NCBI GenBank assembly: GCA_963205295.1
Contig: CAUJIY010000025.1
Coordinates: 1-64,000 of the forward strand
Reading direction: 5' to 3'
DNA length: 64,000 bases
Source: Pseudomonadota bacterium
GTDB taxonomy: Bacteria; Pseudomonadota; Gammaproteobacteria; Steroidobacterales; GCA-2729495
The notes below the pieces were generated by a model. The model worked only from the letters and a program-made list of their open reading frames with translations. It ran no database searches and was not told where the DNA came from. Both the position numbers and the translations under genes were made by a program. Of this stretch, positions 7,808 to 15,954 are shown in pieces (position 1 is the first letter of the stretch; each line of letters begins with the position of its first letter).

Positions 7808-8590
7808 TTAGAGCAGGAACGCCGTGATCATGTAATCGAGGATCAGCACGAGGACCGAGGTGATGACCACCGTGCGCGTGGTAGCCAGCCCGACGCCTTC
7901 GGCGGTCCGCTCCGAGGTGTAACCCTCGAACACGGCCACGAGGCTGGCGGCCACACCGAACACGGCACTTTTCAGGACCCCTTCCCAGACATCTTCCGAT
8001 TCCACGTATTCCTGCATCTGGGACCAGAAGGCGCCATTGTCCACGCCCATGAGCTGAACGCCAACGAAGTAGGCGCCGAGGATGCCGATGCTGCTGAACA
8101 CGGCAGTCAGCAGCGGCACGGAAATGACGCCACCGAGAAAGCGCGGTACCGCGATCCGCCCCATGGGATCGACCGCCATCACCTCCATCGCCGAGAGCTG
8201 ATCCGTGGCGCGCATCAGGCCGATCTCGGCGGTCAGGGCCGTACCGGCACGTCCGGCGAACAGGAGTGCCGTCACCACCGGGCCGAGTTCCTTGAGCAGC
8301 GTCAGGGCGGCACCGGCACCGAGCAGGTCCTCCTGGCGCAGGCGGGAAAATGCGTCATAGCCCTGCAGCCCGATCACCATGCCGACGAAGAAACCCGAGG
8401 TCATGATGATGACGAGCGAGAGCACGCCGGCATTGTGGACCTGGCGCCACACGAGCGCCGGGCGGCGCATGGCGTAGGGCAATGCGCGAAGCATGGCCAT
8501 GAGAAAGAACGCGACGGCGCCGAGCTTGCGCACGGCCGCACCGAGCCGGCGGCCGGCCTGGCCGATAGTGCCGGCTTCAGGCGCCGCCAT
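7808..8590 (-). CDS. mlaE: Phospholipid ABC transporter permease MlaE
   Basis: 260 aa with five to six hydrophobic segments and the MlaE family block ELGPVVTALLFAGRAGTALTAEIGLM. The ATG at 8590 is 7 bases after AGGAGGAG and overlaps the mlaF end by 14 bases. The longer upstream frame runs through mlaF and was not used. Confidence 0.96.
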   Translation of the reverse strand: MAAPEAGTIGQAGRRLGAAVRKLGAVAFFLMAMLRALPYAMRRPALVWRQVHNAGVLSLVIIMTSGFFVGMVIGLQGYDAFSRLRQEDLLGAGAALTLLKELGPVVTALLFAGRAGTALTAEIGLMRATDQLSAMEVMAVDPMGRIAVPRFLGGVISVPLLTAVFSSIGILGAYFVGVQLMGVDNGAFWSQMQEYVESEDVWEGVLKSAVFGVAASLVAVFEGYTSERTAEGVGLATTRTVVITSVLVLILDYMITAFLL

Positions 8591-9395
8591 CGAACAACTC
8601 CTCCTGGTAATCCCGCGCCGGATAGTGGAACGGCACGGGTCCATCCGCCTCCCCGCTCATGAACTGGCGGATGAGCGGGGAAGCCGAGTCCTGCAACTCA
8701 GCCGGGGTGCCAGCCCCGATGACCCGGCCGCCCGACACCACGTAGCAGTAATCCGCGATGGTGTTGATCTGCTCGACGTCGTGGGACACCACCACACTGG
8801 TAACACCGAGAACATCATTGTTGGCCCGGATCAGACGTAGCACCATGCCCATCGAGATCGGGTCAAGGCCCGCGAACGGCTCGTCATAGAGCAGCAGCTC
8901 CGGATCGAGCACCATGGCACGCGCCAGCGCCACGCGCCGCGCCATGCCACCGGAGAGCTCAGCCGGCATCAACGCCGCCGCCCCGCGCAACCCGACCGCG
9001 TGCAGCTTGGTCAGCACCACAGTACGAACCAGCGGCTCCGGCAACCGGGTGTGCTCGCGCAACGGAAAAGCGACGTTCTCGAAAACCGAGTAGTCGGTCA
9101 GCAGGGCCGAGTTCTGGAACAGCATGCCCATGCGGCGACGCAGGGCGTAGAGCCCCGCCCGGTCGAGGGCGGCGACGTCCTCGCCGTCGACCAGCAGCCG
9201 GCCGGCTGCCGGCCTGATCTGGCCCGTGATCATGCGCAGCAGTGTGGTCTTGCCGGTGCCGCTCGGGCCCATGATGGCAGTCACGCCACCGCGCGGCACC
9301 GTCAGCGACAGGCCATCGAAAATCACCCGGCCCGTGCCCGTTGCGTAACGCAGGCCATCGACGGCGATCATGGGTTGTAACGACCCGGCTGTCAT
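8577..9395 (-). CDS. mlaF: Phospholipid ABC transporter ATPase MlaF
   Basis: About 272 aa. An ABC ATPase with Walker A GPSGTGKTT, signature LSGGM, Walker B LLLYDEPF and the H-loop SHDV. It powers MlaFEDB. The first gene of mlaFEDCB. Candidate starts are ATG at 9395 and 9371, neither with a strong ribosome-binding site, so the N-terminus is uncertain by 8 residues. Its promoter should lie in the 277-base gap shared with sufR, where I saw no clear minus-strand promoter. Confidence 0.95.
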   Translation of the reverse strand: MTAGSLQPMIAVDGLRYATGTGRVIFDGLSLTVPRGGVTAIMGPSGTGKTTLLRMITGQIRPAAGRLLVDGEDVAALDRAGLYALRRRMGMLFQNSALLTDYSVFENVAFPLREHTRLPEPLVRTVVLTKLHAVGLRGAAALMPAELSGGMARRVALARAMVLDPELLLYDEPFAGLDPISMGMVLRLIRANNDVLGVTSVVVSHDVEQINTIADYCYVVSGGRVIGAGTPAELQDSASPLIRQFMSGEADGPVPFHYPARDYQEELFDGGA

Positions 9396-9623
9396 GCGCA
9401 CCAACCGCTGAGACTCCGGCTCAGGAGACCGCCATCGTGGACCGGCTGCCCGTCGGCGGTCCGTTCCGGACGATACACGCAGCCCAACCAGCCCAATGCC
9501 CAGCCTGCATGGCTGAATTCTCCAGCGACAAGCGGTGATCGCAGGTCACCATGTGGTGGCGCCTGACGGGAAGCGCGCAGGATACCAGATTGAATGAGCC
9601 CGCTCCCCTGCCAGGCGAGCGGC

Positions 9624-9652
9624 TTGCCCGGTCCTTCAATTCGGACTAATAT
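9624..9652 (+). promoter_or_regulatory. Predicted promoter of the suf operon
   Basis: TTGCCC (9624-9629) and TAATAT (9647-9652) have the ideal 17-base spacer. The expected transcription start is near 9659, about 23 bases before the sufR ATG. The -10 lies inside an Rrf2-type operator. The rest of the 9396-9623 gap shows no gene. Confidence 0.7.
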
Positions 9653-9662
9653 GGTCCCATAT
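9638..9662 (+). promoter_or_regulatory. IscR/SufR-type (Rrf2) operator overlapping the suf -10
   Basis: The core GACTAATATGGTC (9644-9656) fits the IscR type 1 core GACT-RWWWY-AGTC with one mismatch, and the right arm ends in TAT like the consensus. Over the full 25 bases about 17 positions match. Inside it, ATATGGTCCCATAT (9649-9662) is a perfect palindrome. It covers the predicted -10, as expected for autorepression by the first gene, an Rrf2 regulator. This is inference from the motif. Confidence 0.6.
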
Positions 9663-9681: not shown

Positions 9682-10151
9682 ATGCTGCGCATCAGCCGCA
9701 TCACGGACTACGGCACCATGATCCTCGTGCACCTCGCTGCACGCGACGGACGGGTGTGCTCGGCCAGCGACGTAGCCGCCGGGACCCACGTGGCGCTGCC
9801 GACGGTGCAGAAAATTCTCAAGCTGCTGACCCGCTCCGGGCTCGTCGTGTCGAGTCGCGGGGCCGACGGCGGCTATTCGCTGGGGCGCCGTGCCGAAGCG
9901 ATCAGTGCAGCCGAAATTCTCGACGTCCTCGACGGCCCGGTCGCAATCACCGAGTGCAGCCACAGCAACAGCCAGTGCGAACTCGAGTCGCTGTGCCAGG
10001 TCGGTGGCGCCTGGCAGAAGATCAACAAGGCGATCCACGCCGCTCTCGATGACATTACGCTGGCGGATCTGGCGCGCCCGGCACGCGACCTGCCGGTGCA
10101 CGCACTCACCCATGGCATCACCCGCACCGTGCACCGCCACGATCGCAACCG

Positions 10152-10155
<4 letters not shown>
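9682..10155 (+). CDS. Rrf2-family regulator of the SUF operon
   Basis: 157 aa Rrf2/IscR-type winged-helix regulator. The N-terminal DNA-binding part is [19 protein letters not shown] with the recognition segment [18 protein letters not shown] (about 39-56). The wing [10 protein letters not shown] follows. A cluster [16 protein letters not shown] (about 92-107) supplies three cysteines, as in [2Fe-2S]-binding family members, so it probably senses Fe-S status and represses its own operon. It is the first gene of the operon and overlaps sufB by ATGA. It belongs to the group annotated as SUF system Fe-S cluster assembly regulator, distinct from cyanobacterial SufR. Confidence 0.92.
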
Positions 10156-11600
<1,445 letters not shown>

Positions 11601-11620
11601 AACCCGGCCCGGAACAAGCC

Positions 11621-12376
11621 ATGCTGCTCATCATCGACAACCTGCACGTCAGCGTGGGTGGCAACGCCATCCTCAAGGGCCTGTCGCTGGAGGTCGGGGC
11701 CGGCGAAGTGCACGCCATCATGGGGCCGAACGGTTCCGGCAAGAGCACGCTCGCTCATGTGCTCGCCGGACGCGACGGCTACGAAGTCACGGCCGGCACC
11801 GTGACGTATCGCGACCGTGACCTGCTGACGATGCCCCCCGAGGAACGGGCCCGCGAGGGCGTGTTCCTGGGATTCCAGTACCCGGTGGAAATCCCCGGGG
11901 TCAACAATCTCTACCTGCTGCGTGCCGCGCTCAATGCCCGTCGCCGCCATCGCGGCGAACAGGAAATCGACGCGATCGCCTTCATGAAGCTCGCCCGCGA
12001 GAAGGCGAAACTGATGCAGATGGGCGAGCAATTCATGAGCCGCGGCGTGAACGAGGGTTTCTCCGGCGGCGAAAAGAAGCGCAACGAGATCTTCCAGATG
12101 ACGATGCTCGAGCCTGAGCTCGCCGTCCTCGACGAGACCGATTCCGGGCTTGACATCGACGCGCTGAAGGTCGTCGCCAACGGCGTGAACAGCCTGCGGA
12201 ACAGCCAGCACGGATTCCTCCTGGTGACCCACTACCAGCGTCTGCTCGACCATATCGCCCCGGACGTCGTGCATGTCCTTGCCGACGGCCGCATCGTGCG
12301 CAGCGGCGACAAGGGCCTGGCGACCGAACTCGAATCGCGCGGCTACGACTGGCTGCGCGCCGGCGCCCCGGCCTGA
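11621..12376 (+). CDS. sufC: Fe-S assembly ATPase SufC
   Basis: 251 aa ABC-type ATPase with Walker A GPNGSGKST (about 34-42), the SufC-specific signature FSGGEKKRNE and Walker B LAVLDETDSGLD. It drives conformational change in the SufBCD complex. It starts 20 bases after sufB, and its stop shares one base with the sufD start (TGATG). Confidence 0.98.
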   Translation: MLLIIDNLHVSVGGNAILKGLSLEVGAGEVHAIMGPNGSGKSTLAHVLAGRDGYEVTAGTVTYRDRDLLTMPPEERAREGVFLGFQYPVEIPGVNNLYLLRAALNARRRHRGEQEIDAIAFMKLAREKAKLMQMGEQFMSRGVNEGFSGGEKKRNEIFQMTMLEPELAVLDETDSGLDIDALKVVANGVNSLRNSQHGFLLVTHYQRLLDHIAPDVVHVLADGRIVRSGDKGLATELESRGYDWLRAGAPA

Positions 12377-13689
12377 TGAGTGAACGTATGGATCCCGGTG
12401 CCTTGAACCGTGCCGTCCGCGACCTCGCAGCGCGTGCTGGTGGTCCGGCCTGGCTGGCGGCCCAGCGGGCGACGGCCCTGCATGAGTTCGAGCAATACGG
12501 CCTGCCGGGTACCGCGACGGAAGACTGGCGCTACACGAACCTCGGCCCCGTAGCGCAGCGCATCGTCGCCGCCAGCAGTGCAGCGGCTGGCCCCGCCGAC
12601 AGCAGCAACGCGGTTCGCGCCCAGATCCCGGCCATAGCAGACGGTGACCTGGCCGTTTTTGTCGATGGCCAGTTCCGCTCCGATCTTTCAAGACTCGGCC
12701 GGGTAGCGGGAGCGGCCTGGGCCGAGGCAGGGACCGCACTGACCGGTCTTCTGGCACCGCCCCCGCAGGACGTTGCAACAGCGGATTCCGGACGCGGGGT
12801 GACGGCTCTCAAGACCGCCCTGCTGCGCGATGGTCTGGTCGTGGATATCGCCGAAAGCGTCGTTCTCGATGCGCCATTGCACCTCGTCTTCCTGCACTCC
12901 CGAAGTACCGCAGCCCATGCGGGCGTGGTCGTGAGGCTCGGCGCGAACAGCATCGCGACCGTGATCGAACATCATCTGGGCTCGGCGTCGGCGGTCGGCA
13001 TGTCGACGACGAAGCTCGCCTGCGCCGCCAGGTCCCGCCTGGCGTTCGTCAAGCTGCAGACCCTTGGCGAGGCGGCCTGCCACCTCGGGACCCAACAGCT
13101 CACCGTCGGCGCCGAGGCCGCCGTCGATCTGCTCCACCTGGATCTCGGCGGACGCCTGGCACGCAACGACCTGACGGTCGAACTGGCAGGTCCCGGCGCC
13201 ACGGTGGTGAGCCACGGACTGTTTTTCGCCGACGGAGCCCGCCACCTCGACAACCACACACGTATCGACCACCGCGCCCCCCGGACCCGCAGCCTCGAGG
13301 TCTATCGCGGTATCGCCGACGACTCCGGCCGCGGTGTCTTCAACGGCCGGATCGTGGTTCACCCCGGCGCCAACCAGACCGACGCCAGGCTGACCAACCA
13401 GAACCTGCTGCTGTCGAACCTCGCCGAGATCGACACCAAACCGGAGCTGGAGATCTATGCGGACGACGTGCGCTGCAGCCACGGCGCCACCACCGGCCAA
13501 CTCGACCGTAACGCCGTGTTTTACCTGCGCTCGCGCGGCATCGGCGCCGAGGAGGCCCGACAGCTGCTGATCGCGTCGTTCGCGCGCGAGATCGTGCGCC
13601 ATCTGCCACCCGGCGGCCTCGAAGCACAGGTCATCGGGATCCTCGAATCGCGACTGCCGGGACTGGCAGCTGCCGGGGCCCGTCCGTGA
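12376..13689 (+). CDS. sufD: Fe-S cluster assembly protein SufD
   Basis: 437 aa. The C-terminal UPF0051 beta-helix contains VRCSHGATTGQLDRNAVFYL, with the Cys and His that in E. coli SufD help hold the nascent cluster at the SufB-SufD interface. The N-terminal part (EDWRYTNL) is typical. It begins in the sufC stop and ends overlapping the sufS GTG start (GTGA). Confidence 0.96.
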   Translation: MSERMDPGALNRAVRDLAARAGGPAWLAAQRATALHEFEQYGLPGTATEDWRYTNLGPVAQRIVAASSAAAGPADSSNAVRAQIPAIADGDLAVFVDGQFRSDLSRLGRVAGAAWAEAGTALTGLLAPPPQDVATADSGRGVTALKTALLRDGLVVDIAESVVLDAPLHLVFLHSRSTAAHAGVVVRLGANSIATVIEHHLGSASAVGMSTTKLACAARSRLAFVKLQTLGEAACHLGTQQLTVGAEAAVDLLHLDLGGRLARNDLTVELAGPGATVVSHGLFFADGARHLDNHTRIDHRAPRTRSLEVYRGIADDSGRGVFNGRIVVHPGANQTDARLTNQNLLLSNLAEIDTKPELEIYADDVRCSHGATTGQLDRNAVFYLRSRGIGAEEARQLLIASFAREIVRHLPPGGLEAQVIGILESRLPGLAAAGARP

Positions 13690-14942
13690 ACCAGCCCAGC
13701 GCGCACGAGCGAGGTGCAGCACCGGTGTTCGATGTCGGGCGTATCCGCGCCGACTTCCCGATCCTGCACGAGGCCATCAACGGTCACCCGCTCGCCTATC
13801 TCGACAATGCCGCCTCGTACCAGCACCCCCGCACGGTGATCGAGGCGATCAGCCGCTACTACGAGCACGATCACGCCAACGTGCATCGCGGCGTGCACAC
13901 GCTCAGCCACCGCGCCACCGAAGCCCAGGAACGCGGCCGCGAGGCGGCCCGACGACTGCTCAACGCCCGCAGCGTACGCGAGATCGTCTTTACCCGTGGC
14001 ACCACCGAAGCCATCAACCTCGTTGCAGCCACCCTCGGCCAGTCACTGCGCCCCGGTGACGAGATCCTCATCTCGCACATGGAGCACCACTCCAACATCG
14101 TGCCGTGGCAACTCGTCTGCGAGCGCAGCAGCGCACGTCTCGTGGTCGTACCAATCAACGACCGTGGCGAGATCCTGCTCGATGAGTACCACCGCCTGCT
14201 CAGTGAGCGCACGCGCCTGGTGGCGATGGCGCACGTATCCAATGCGCTGGGCACCGTCAACCCGGTGGCCGCGATCGTCGCTGCCGCCCGTCAGCGCAAC
14301 ATCCCCGTGCTCCTCGACGGCGCCCAGGCCGTAGCCCACCAGCGCGTGGACGTGCGTGCACTCGACTGCGATTTCTACGCTTTTTCCGGACACAAGATGT
14401 GCGGCCCGACCGGAATCGGTGTCCTCTACGGACGCGAGGAATGGCTGCAGCGACTGCCGCCGTACCAGGGCGGCGGTGACATGATCCTGAGCGTCAGTTT
14501 CAGCGGCACGGTCTACAACGAGCTGCCGTACCGGTTCGAGGCCGGCACCCCGCACGTCGCCGGCGCCGTCGGGCTCGGCGCTGCCATCGAGTACCTGGAG
14601 GCAGTCGGACTCGAGCGGATCGAGCACTACGAGGCCGGCCTGCTGGCCTATGCCACGGAGGCGATCGGCGCCGTTTCCGGTGTGCGGATCATCGGTCAGG
14701 CGGCCCACAAGGCCGGTGTCGTATCGTTCACGGTCGACGGCATCCATCCACACGATCTCGGCACAGTACTCGATCACCAGGGTGTGGCGATCCGTACCGG
14801 ACACCACTGCGCCATGCCGGTCATGGAACGTTTCGGCCTCGCCGGCACGGCGCGCGCTTCGTTTGCGTTCTACAACACCACGGCCGAGATCGACCGGCTG
14901 GTGGCCGCCCTGGCAGTCGCCAGACGGATGCTGCAACCGTGA
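13686..14942 (+). CDS. sufS: Cysteine desulfurase SufS
   Basis: 418 aa class V aminotransferase fold. The PLP lysine is in FSGHKMCGP (about 235), and RTGHHCAMP (about 373) carries the persulfide Cys. The GHHC loop without a long insertion is typical of type II desulfurases. The GTG start overlaps the sufD stop. Its sulfur acceptor here is probably SufU, encoded next. Confidence 0.97.
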   Translation: MNQPSAHERGAAPVFDVGRIRADFPILHEAINGHPLAYLDNAASYQHPRTVIEAISRYYEHDHANVHRGVHTLSHRATEAQERGREAARRLLNARSVREIVFTRGTTEAINLVAATLGQSLRPGDEILISHMEHHSNIVPWQLVCERSSARLVVVPINDRGEILLDEYHRLLSERTRLVAMAHVSNALGTVNPVAAIVAAARQRNIPVLLDGAQAVAHQRVDVRALDCDFYAFSGHKMCGPTGIGVLYGREEWLQRLPPYQGGGDMILSVSFSGTVYNELPYRFEAGTPHVAGAVGLGAAIEYLEAVGLERIEHYEAGLLAYATEAIGAVSGVRIIGQAAHKAGVVSFTVDGIHPHDLGTVLDHQGVAIRTGHHCAMPVMERFGLAGTARASFAFYNTTAEIDRLVAALAVARRMLQP

Positions 14943-15400
14943 CGACGGATGCGCAGCTCAGCCGGCTGTATCAGGACATCGTCCTGCGCCACAGCCGCAA
15001 CCCGCACAACCAGCGCCGCATAGAGGCGGCACAGGCGCACGCCGACGGTCACAACCCGCTGTGCGGCGACCGGATAACCGTCTATCTGCAACTGGAGCAC
15101 GGGCACATCCGCGAAGCCGCATTCGAAGCCGTCGGCTGCGCCATCTCGCTGGCGTCAGCTTCGATGCTGACGGATGCGATCACCGGGTGCAGCACTGCCG
15201 AGGCGCTGAACCTCGCCGGCGAAGTCGAGGCACGGCTGGCCGGACAGCCGGCAACGCGGGATCTCGGCGAGATCGAGGCCCTGTCGGGCGTGCGCGCCTA
15301 CCCGGCGCGGGTGCGCTGCGCCACGCTGCCCTGGCGGACGCTGCAGGCGGCACTGACCGGCGCGGCACAGACGGTCAGCACCGAGGCGGAAACGCGATGA
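14939..15400 (+). CDS. sufU: Zinc-dependent sulfurtransferase SufU
   Basis: 153 aa IscU-like fold. The ligand residues are visible: Cys in NPLCGDR (about 42), Cys in EAVGCAISLAS (about 67) and Cys in RVRCATLPW (about 128). The insertion between the second and third Cys regions and the adjacent sufS are typical of SufU, which takes persulfide from SufS, rather than scaffold IscU. No sufE is in the operon. The GTG start overlaps the sufS stop, and its end overlaps sufT. Confidence 0.92.
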   Translation: MTTDAQLSRLYQDIVLRHSRNPHNQRRIEAAQAHADGHNPLCGDRITVYLQLEHGHIREAAFEAVGCAISLASASMLTDAITGCSTAEALNLAGEVEARLAGQPATRDLGEIEALSGVRAYPARVRCATLPWRTLQAALTGAAQTVSTEAETR

Positions 15401-15954
15401 TGTTCGGCCCCATGAACGAACCGGTGACGCTCAGGCGCGATCTGGATGCACTGACCGTACCTGCGGGGATCCCGGAGCGGCTCGAACGCAGCTCCCTCGT
15501 CTACATCACGCAGGCCATGGGAGGCAGTTTCACCATTTACTTCGAGGGCAATCTCTATCGGGTCGCCGGTAAGGATGCCGATGCACTCGGTCGCGAAGTA
15601 CCGCCGGTACCGGTGCTGCAACCGGGTGCCACGGATGATGATTTCCGCACGCTGGTCTGGGACCAGATGCGCACGGTCTATGATCCGGAGATCCCGATCA
15701 ATATCGTCGACCTCGGGCTGGTTTACGATTGCCACATCGTCAAGGACCCCCAGTCGGGCTCGCGCGCCGTCGACGTCCAGATGACCGTCACGGCACCCGG
15801 CTGCGGCATGGGCGAGATTCTCGTCGAGGAGGTGCGCGAGAAGATCAGCCTGTTGCCGACGGTCACCGCGGTGGCCGTCGAACTGGTCTACGACCCACCC
15901 TGGAACCAGAGCATGATGTCGGAAGCTGCCCGGCTCGAAGCCGGCCTGCTCTGA
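15397..15954 (+). CDS. sufT: Fe-S assembly protein SufT (MIP18/DUF59 family)
   Basis: 185 aa. The C-terminal DUF59 domain (about 85-175) has VYDPEIPINIVDLGLVYDC and MTVTAPGCGMGEILVEEV, with the conserved Asp-Pro-Glu and the single Cys. SufT family members help mature Fe-S proteins. It begins in the sufU stop (ATGATGA), and a second ATG one codon later is equally possible. It is the last Fe-S gene of the operon, and the phosphatase gene follows after 8 bases. Confidence 0.93.
   Translation: MMFGPMNEPVTLRRDLDALTVPAGIPERLERSSLVYITQAMGGSFTIYFEGNLYRVAGKDADALGREVPPVPVLQPGATDDDFRTLVWDQMRTVYDPEIPINIVDLGLVYDCHIVKDPQSGSRAVDVQMTVTAPGCGMGEILVEEVREKISLLPTVTAVAVELVYDPPWNQSMMSEAARLEAGLL

Follow-up and report, generated by a model that had tools for sequence, protein, structure and literature searches.

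A palindromic sequence lies directly before the regulator gene of a suf operon, and the question raised by this locus is whether it is the landing site by which the regulator (SufR) controls its own promoter. The original prediction saw here an Rrf2/IscR-type operator on the -10 box of suf and drew from it an autorepression model of Fe-S control in a SUF-only bacterium. Here we surveyed the site in the window (the whole stretch of 64,000 nucleotides that was analysed), in the genome to which it belongs and in related genomes. The site is very probably the operator of a RisR-like SufR on its own promoter, where a cluster-loaded SufR dimer would block RNA polymerase and the apo form would release the DNA.

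The suf operon and the site before sufR

The genes sufR-sufB-sufC-sufD-sufS-sufU-sufT follow one another from 9682 to 15954, with names given by NCBIfam, and are listed in Table 1 along with the elements of the operator and the promoter. The search for IscU over the cut-off found none in the genome of the window, which is 94% complete, and in the class IscU passed the cut-off in 6 of the 78 genomes having sufR and in 108 of the 196 others (Fisher p about 3e-14, with relatedness ignored). The SUF-only Fe-S assembly that had been proposed for this genome is supported by these counts, on the basis of the ISC search (IscU) alone, with NIF outside it.

Table 1. Positions of the suf genes and of the operator and promoter elements in the window
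Feature	Position	Strand	Evidence or remark
ORF on the far side of the sufR upstream region	8577-9404	-	best match MlaF, 371.8 bits, below the cut-off of 441
Predicted -35 hexamer TTGCCC	9624..9629	+	TTG peak across relatives
SufR operator, 25-bp with AT-rich flanks	9638..9662	+	AATTCGGACTAATATGGTCCCATAT; scan pattern AWWTNGKACTADWWTRGTMCNAWWT
Palindromic core GGAC-TAATATG-GTCC	9643..9657	+	GGACTAATATGGTCC; centre 9650
Predicted -10 hexamer TAATAT, inside the operator	9647..9652	+	17-bp spacer from the -35
sufR, Rrf2 regulator, 157 aa, Cys92/99/105, Asp9	9682..10155	+	TIGR02944 147.1 bits, cut-off 110.65
sufB	10152..11600	+	PRK11814 911 bits, cut-off 717; start overlaps the sufR stop
sufC (approximate start)	11621..12376	+	TIGR01978 358.5 bits, cut-off 212.8
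sufD	12376..13689	+	TIGR01981 254.6 bits, cut-off 222
sufS cysteine desulfurase	13686..14942	+	TIGR01979 575.6 bits, cut-off 475.1
sufU	14939..15400	+	TIGR01994 144.1 bits, cut-off 92.5
sufT (exact start approximate; in frame with the ORF ending 15954)	15397..15954	+	TIGR03406 237 bits, cut-off 202.6

The core GACT-AATAT-GGTC is found at 9644-9656, within the 15-mer GGACTAATATGGTCC, whose outer arms GGAC/GTCC are perfectly paired and whose centre stands 32 nt 5′ of sufR, the first gene of the operon. The 14-base palindrome ATATGG-TC-CCATAT is found at 9649-9662, and both elements are thus present within 9638-9662 as they had been described. GGAC-N7-GTCC has a single occurrence in the window, at 9643; GACT-N5-GGTC occurs in 2 places where 2.1 are expected, and within the window alone the operator core is not significant against chance. 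Its significance comes from conservation across relatives and not from the statistics of the window. Inverted repeats of the 6+2+6 shape number 38 in the window, and the 14-base palindrome, which had been taken as part of the operator, is incidental: it is present in 11 of 190 distinct sufR upstream regions and was rejected as a functional unit. The window site has G at position 11 and in this differs from the perfect form, GGACTAWWWTAGTCC.

Conservation of the operator and its overlap with the promoter

The class set was built by a TIGR02944 search of 274 genomes, of which 78 had a protein over the cut-off, and the upstream DNA of all 78 was examined. A site score of at least 11 was reached in 76 of the 78 sufR orthologues, whereas dinucleotide shuffles averaged 2.3 such loci, with 5 at most, and none of 76 coding control stretches had one; at a score of at least 12.5 the count was 49 of the 78 loci against 0.03 in the shuffles. 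The two class loci under 11 are L080 (10.5) and L058 (9.0). The column table of the class took in 77 of the 78 loci (score at least 10.5), and in 11 of 77 loci the centre of the best site is more than 60 nt, and up to 200, from the assigned sufR start. The scoring template was written after inspecting the upstream regions and the core columns and core pairing are therefore partly circular; the flank columns, the TTG asymmetry and the exact scans stand outside that circularity.

The flank columns were read from a set of 190 upstream regions, which are related to one another and not independent; loci were dropped from it if their best site scored under 11, if their upstream end was a repeat of another, or if they had fewer than 60 bases upstream or too little flank. 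Columns -4 (A in 87%) and 20 (T in 92%) are conserved in this set though they lie outside the search template.

At the level of the order, 49 of 51 sufR upstream regions scored at least 12.0 (51 of the 56 genomes over the cut-off), and the two exceptions (L167 and L168, from two genomes of one genus) scored 10.8. Of the five order genomes outside the 51, G000 and G167 were covered with the class set, and in G278, G297 and G324 an exact site was found at sufR. A genome of the same genus as the window (G300) carries GGACTAGCATAGTCC upstream of sufR. Public genome contigs were scanned with protein alignment and the best 80 of 582 relatives were kept, among which 79 scored at least 11 and 79 had sufB inside the fetched DNA. 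The lone score under 11 among the best 80 of 582 came from Cupriavidus laharis (L234, 10.0), and the remaining two Cupriavidus were weak, with 11.3 and 11.0. Two Myxococcaceae (L229, L236) scored 11.5 and have a clear GGAC-N7-GTCC, and the operator therefore extends beyond Gammaproteobacteria. The palindromic site, on whose conservation the original prediction depended, is thus found upstream of orthologous sufR genes in the same genus, in the class and in Myxococcaceae, and in a weaker form in Cupriavidus.

The exact perfect form, GGACTAWWWTAGTCC, was found in 14 of the 274 class genomes, at one place per genome and in all 14 just upstream of sufR. The reversed version of this pattern was found in 9 genomes among the matches listed, so a word so composed is not vanishingly rare; in such genomes CTA/TAG words may fall below the average frequency. 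In the 59 order genomes searched, GGACTADWWTRGTCC occurs at 31 distinct places spread over 29 genomes, and 28 of the 31 are at sufR, including G301:C14, whose contig runs just far enough to show the start of the gene. Two candidates for other targets were rejected. Exact GGACTATTTTGGTCC at the fur-bamE junction of G274 and G288 (L132/L133, about 1501-1515; one genus; gene names by eye) is apparently inside the bamE start and probably due to chance, and the exact match in G301:C31 is off-target, in an apparent transporter frame (by eye).

The operator varies at positions 2 and 14, where the 190 regions hold GGAC...GTCC in 98 cases, GTAC...GTAC in 37, mixed TC in 31, GA in 10 and others in 14; the half-site TAGTACTA is a palindrome in itself. 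The search for a regulator residue behind this G/T choice, done on 81 representatives under 65% identity, gave no clean determinant, and its best columns (51, 80 and 11) are confounded by relatedness. A tandem second operator-like copy (score at least 12) stands upstream of sufR in L054, L020, L055 and L023, suggesting that two-site repression may be at work in some lineages.

The relation to the promoter was taken from the asymmetry of the same 190 regions. TTG starts 19 nt (42 regions) or 20 nt (20 regions) before the core in 62 of the 190, against 0 and 6 (6 of 190) for the mirror-image CAA. This position fits a -35 box with a spacer of 17 or 18 bp to TAnnnT, which occupies core positions 5-10, and the columns concerned are T at 5 (88%), A at 6 (92%) and T at 10 (94%). 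The TTG peak is one-sided where a signal of the palindrome only would be symmetric, which indicates that the operator includes the -10 box. The overlap with the suf -10 that had been claimed is supported by this peak, with TAATAT matching the consensus weakly: the predicted hexamers have 8 of 12 consensus bases (own count), and a strict consensus promoter scan, which required at least 9 of 12, found nothing at them. The assigned sufR start codon is three bases after the operator in 5 of the 190 regions (L181, L182, L184, L200, L246), and the built-in -10 predicts leaderless sufR messages there.

The regulator, its predicted cluster residues and its known relatives

The original label of the regulator was Rrf2/IscR-type. 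The Rrf2 part stands, as SufR passes the NCBIfam model TIGR02944 (SUF system Fe-S cluster assembly regulator; Table 1), and the IscR part was rejected, with 70.2 bits for TIGR02010 against a cut-off of 207.55 and 54.1 for PRK10857 against 275. The IscR ligand His107 aligns with Gly108 of SufR, in a column which is G, R, S, Q, K or A in 126 of 128 orthologues. NsrR was rejected too (59.8 bits against the model cut-off of 182). The protein had also been called a three-Cys regulator; it has four cysteines in total (26, 92, 99 and 105), and the last three make up the cluster motif, with all 128 aligned orthologues having Cys in these columns.

In the column of Asp9, 126 of the 128 orthologues found with the family profile have D and the other 2 have E. 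The best 80 of 582 relatives also all have Asp9, and they are not counted as evidence because the search pattern demanded Thr-Asp-Tyr. By phmmer, Asp9 is aligned with Asp8 of Streptomyces coelicolor NsrR, which is a cluster ligand coming from the other subunit (available text of PMC5411485). We put forward as a tentative proposal, at a little under even probability, that the cluster of SufR and RisR may be held by the three Cys and Asp9 of the partner subunit, as in NsrR. The proposal sits somewhat uneasily with the release of RisR by iron starvation, given that a RirA with Asp at the equivalent position had its cluster stabilised and its iron sensing abolished (available text of PMC10510648). 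A 2024 review, in its available text, calls the fourth ligand of RisR unknown and gives it tentatively as a non-protein ligand (PMC11138216). If the proposal is true, Asp9 would be that fourth ligand, SufR and RisR would sense cluster supply via de novo loading, unlike RirA with its labile fourth iron, and a one-operator homeostat, with its operator fused with the -10 box, would be spread across SUF-only Gammaproteobacteria; Asp9 is the one residue pointed to for how these sensors may hold their cluster. Two orthologues (L079, L080) have Glu for Asp at codon 9; in RsrR, Glu serves as a ligand of the cluster.

Of the experimentally tested relatives in the literature searched, the nearest is Myxococcus xanthus RisR (MXAN_1152), and the operator belongs to the RisR type. 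According to the available text of PMC9973013, a DNase I footprint of RisR gave the motif GAC-N7-GTC on the suf promoter, overlapping the -35/-10; the holo form is the repressor, the cluster-less variant is without repression, and RisR is released by iron starvation; a tag at the N-terminus prevented RisR from binding. In the window, as in that text, an Rrf2 gene heads sufB-C-D-S-U-T and a GAC-N7-GTC operator with AT-rich flanks stands on the suf promoter hexamers, and the three Cys are in the same region of the protein. The two differ in that RisR also represses isc (PMC9973013, available text), whereas the genome of the window is without IscU over the cut-off, and in the spacing of the Cys, 92/99/105 in SufR and 92/102/108 in RisR, the loop of Myxococcaceae being three residues longer. 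For RisR both the binding of a cluster and repression have been measured, and its spectrum points to [4Fe-4S] (same text); for SufR we infer all three.

L229 (Corallococcus), which served as the stand-in for M. xanthus RisR in the family comparison, and L236 (Myxococcaceae) gave 141.3 and 142.3 bits with TIGR02944, match the published RisR Cys positions (92/102/108), and carry the operator GGACTGAATAGGTCC. As the two share the RisR Cys positions, TIGR02944 and the operator, the circuit of the window is likened to that of RisR, and by this analogy it would work in the same way minus the isc branch. That the conserved SufR landing site is real is a sound conclusion, and the site is not of a new kind, as its kind was already shown experimentally in Myxococcus. 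The RisR circuit of M. xanthus, perhaps touched on in X. campestris, is hereby extended to the regulator of many apparently ISC-less, SUF-dependent bacteria, and the consensus operator is specific enough for finding suf promoters by sequence.

The E. coli IscR type-1 site, ATASYYGACTRWWWYAGTCRRSTAT (available text of PMC6599224), is like the SufR operator a 25-bp element with a central GACT...GTC, and 17 of 25 positions fit by a hand count, but its outer bases differ, and SufR fails both IscR models and is without His at the ligand position. In the same available text, Xanthomonas campestris, a SUF-only plant bacterium, has a characterised 'IscR' site which is filed as IscR type-1 (PMC6599224). 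SufR, which passes the NCBIfam model TIGR02944 (suf_reg_Xantho), has sufB as its neighbour; the output of the family model comes without an attached operator, and the name suggests that the X. campestris regulator may be in the same family. Fuangthong 2015 is reportedly the paper on X. campestris IscR, and it may already describe the present operator in that species. NsrR of S. coelicolor (PDB 5n07) is like SufR in its three Cys and in Asp8 aligned with Asp9, but it controls NO detoxification, and SufR is below the NsrR cut-off. The cyanobacterial and mycobacterial SufR have in common with the SufR of the window the name and the repression of the suf operon (here proposed), but they are proteins of another type, whose DNA-binding domain is ArsR-like (available text of PMC9973013). 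In the literature searched, with RegPrecise outside the search, a class-wide description of the TIGR02944 operator was not found.

Proposed mode of action, rival readings and genome scans

The SufR dimer would bind two GKAC/GTMC half-sites, whose centre coincides with TAATAT, the predicted -10 box of the sufR-sufBCDSUT promoter, and bound SufR would exclude RNA polymerase from it. The form that binds DNA would be the one with an Fe-S cluster, probably of the [4Fe-4S] type, whose ligands would be Cys92, Cys99 and Cys105 from one subunit and, perhaps, Asp9 from its partner. With clusters in short supply or damaged, apo-SufR would release the operator and the suf operon would be induced until clusters refill SufR, which would make a one-operator homeostatic loop. 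The part of the earlier autorepression model that stands is an autoregulatory operator, conserved on the -10; that it acts by repression rather than activation is the probable reading by analogy with RisR and from the position of the site.

Among the alternatives the one that survives best, and which is still improbable, is a dual role of SufR on the model of E. coli IscR, in which apo-SufR would bind as well and would either activate suf or just modulate it. SufR is an Rrf2 protein, and suf of E. coli is activated by apo-IscR (available text of PMC8593673), but the operator covers the -10 box, which is a repressor position, SufR is far below the IscR cut-off with Gly at the IscR His ligand, and RisR represses while its cluster-less variant does not (available text of PMC9973013).

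The scans of the genome of the window (2.97-Mb) bear on a second alternative. The 25-bp pattern, with up to 3 mismatches, matches 9638-9662 only; it was derived from the class consensus and shaped to fit the window, and the informative result is its uniqueness. The scan for further copies, which had been suggested for defining the regulon, thus returned the one site, and a wider regulon in this genome was rejected. The 15-mer, with up to 3 mismatches, has four other places, which are chance-like, one of them between purM and a DUF2066-like gene (names by eye). This genome has a second Rrf2 gene (G000:C145:4020-4406, L001), with 129.3 bits for RirA and 125.1 for NsrR, below both cut-offs, and it adjoins an ORF resembling quinol NO reductase (name by eye). 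On these grounds its NsrR/RirA-like product might be the one that binds the palindrome, with suf answering to NO or iron through it; this is very unlikely, as the perfect motif is only at sufR in the 14 class genomes carrying it and the 15-mer scan gave no place on contig C145. That the palindrome is due to chance, or is a promoter with accidental symmetry, is hardly credible despite the non-significance of the core and the 14-base palindrome within the window alone, as the conservation beats shuffles and coding controls, the perfect form is solely at sufR and the flanks outside the template are conserved.

The six class genomes having both sufR and IscU were scanned with the 25-bp pattern at up to 2 mismatches. 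No match was found in G101, G150 and G262; the sufR place alone was found in G136 and G251, and G052 has the sufR place and one further place (G052:C20). The 84%-complete genome G304 has two sufR over the cut-off, on contigs C375 and C407, each with its own exact operator, which may be a second copy or contamination. A sufR of the TIGR02944 family stands before sufB also in L259, a MAG contig titled Klebsiella pneumoniae, and this title may be a misassignment.
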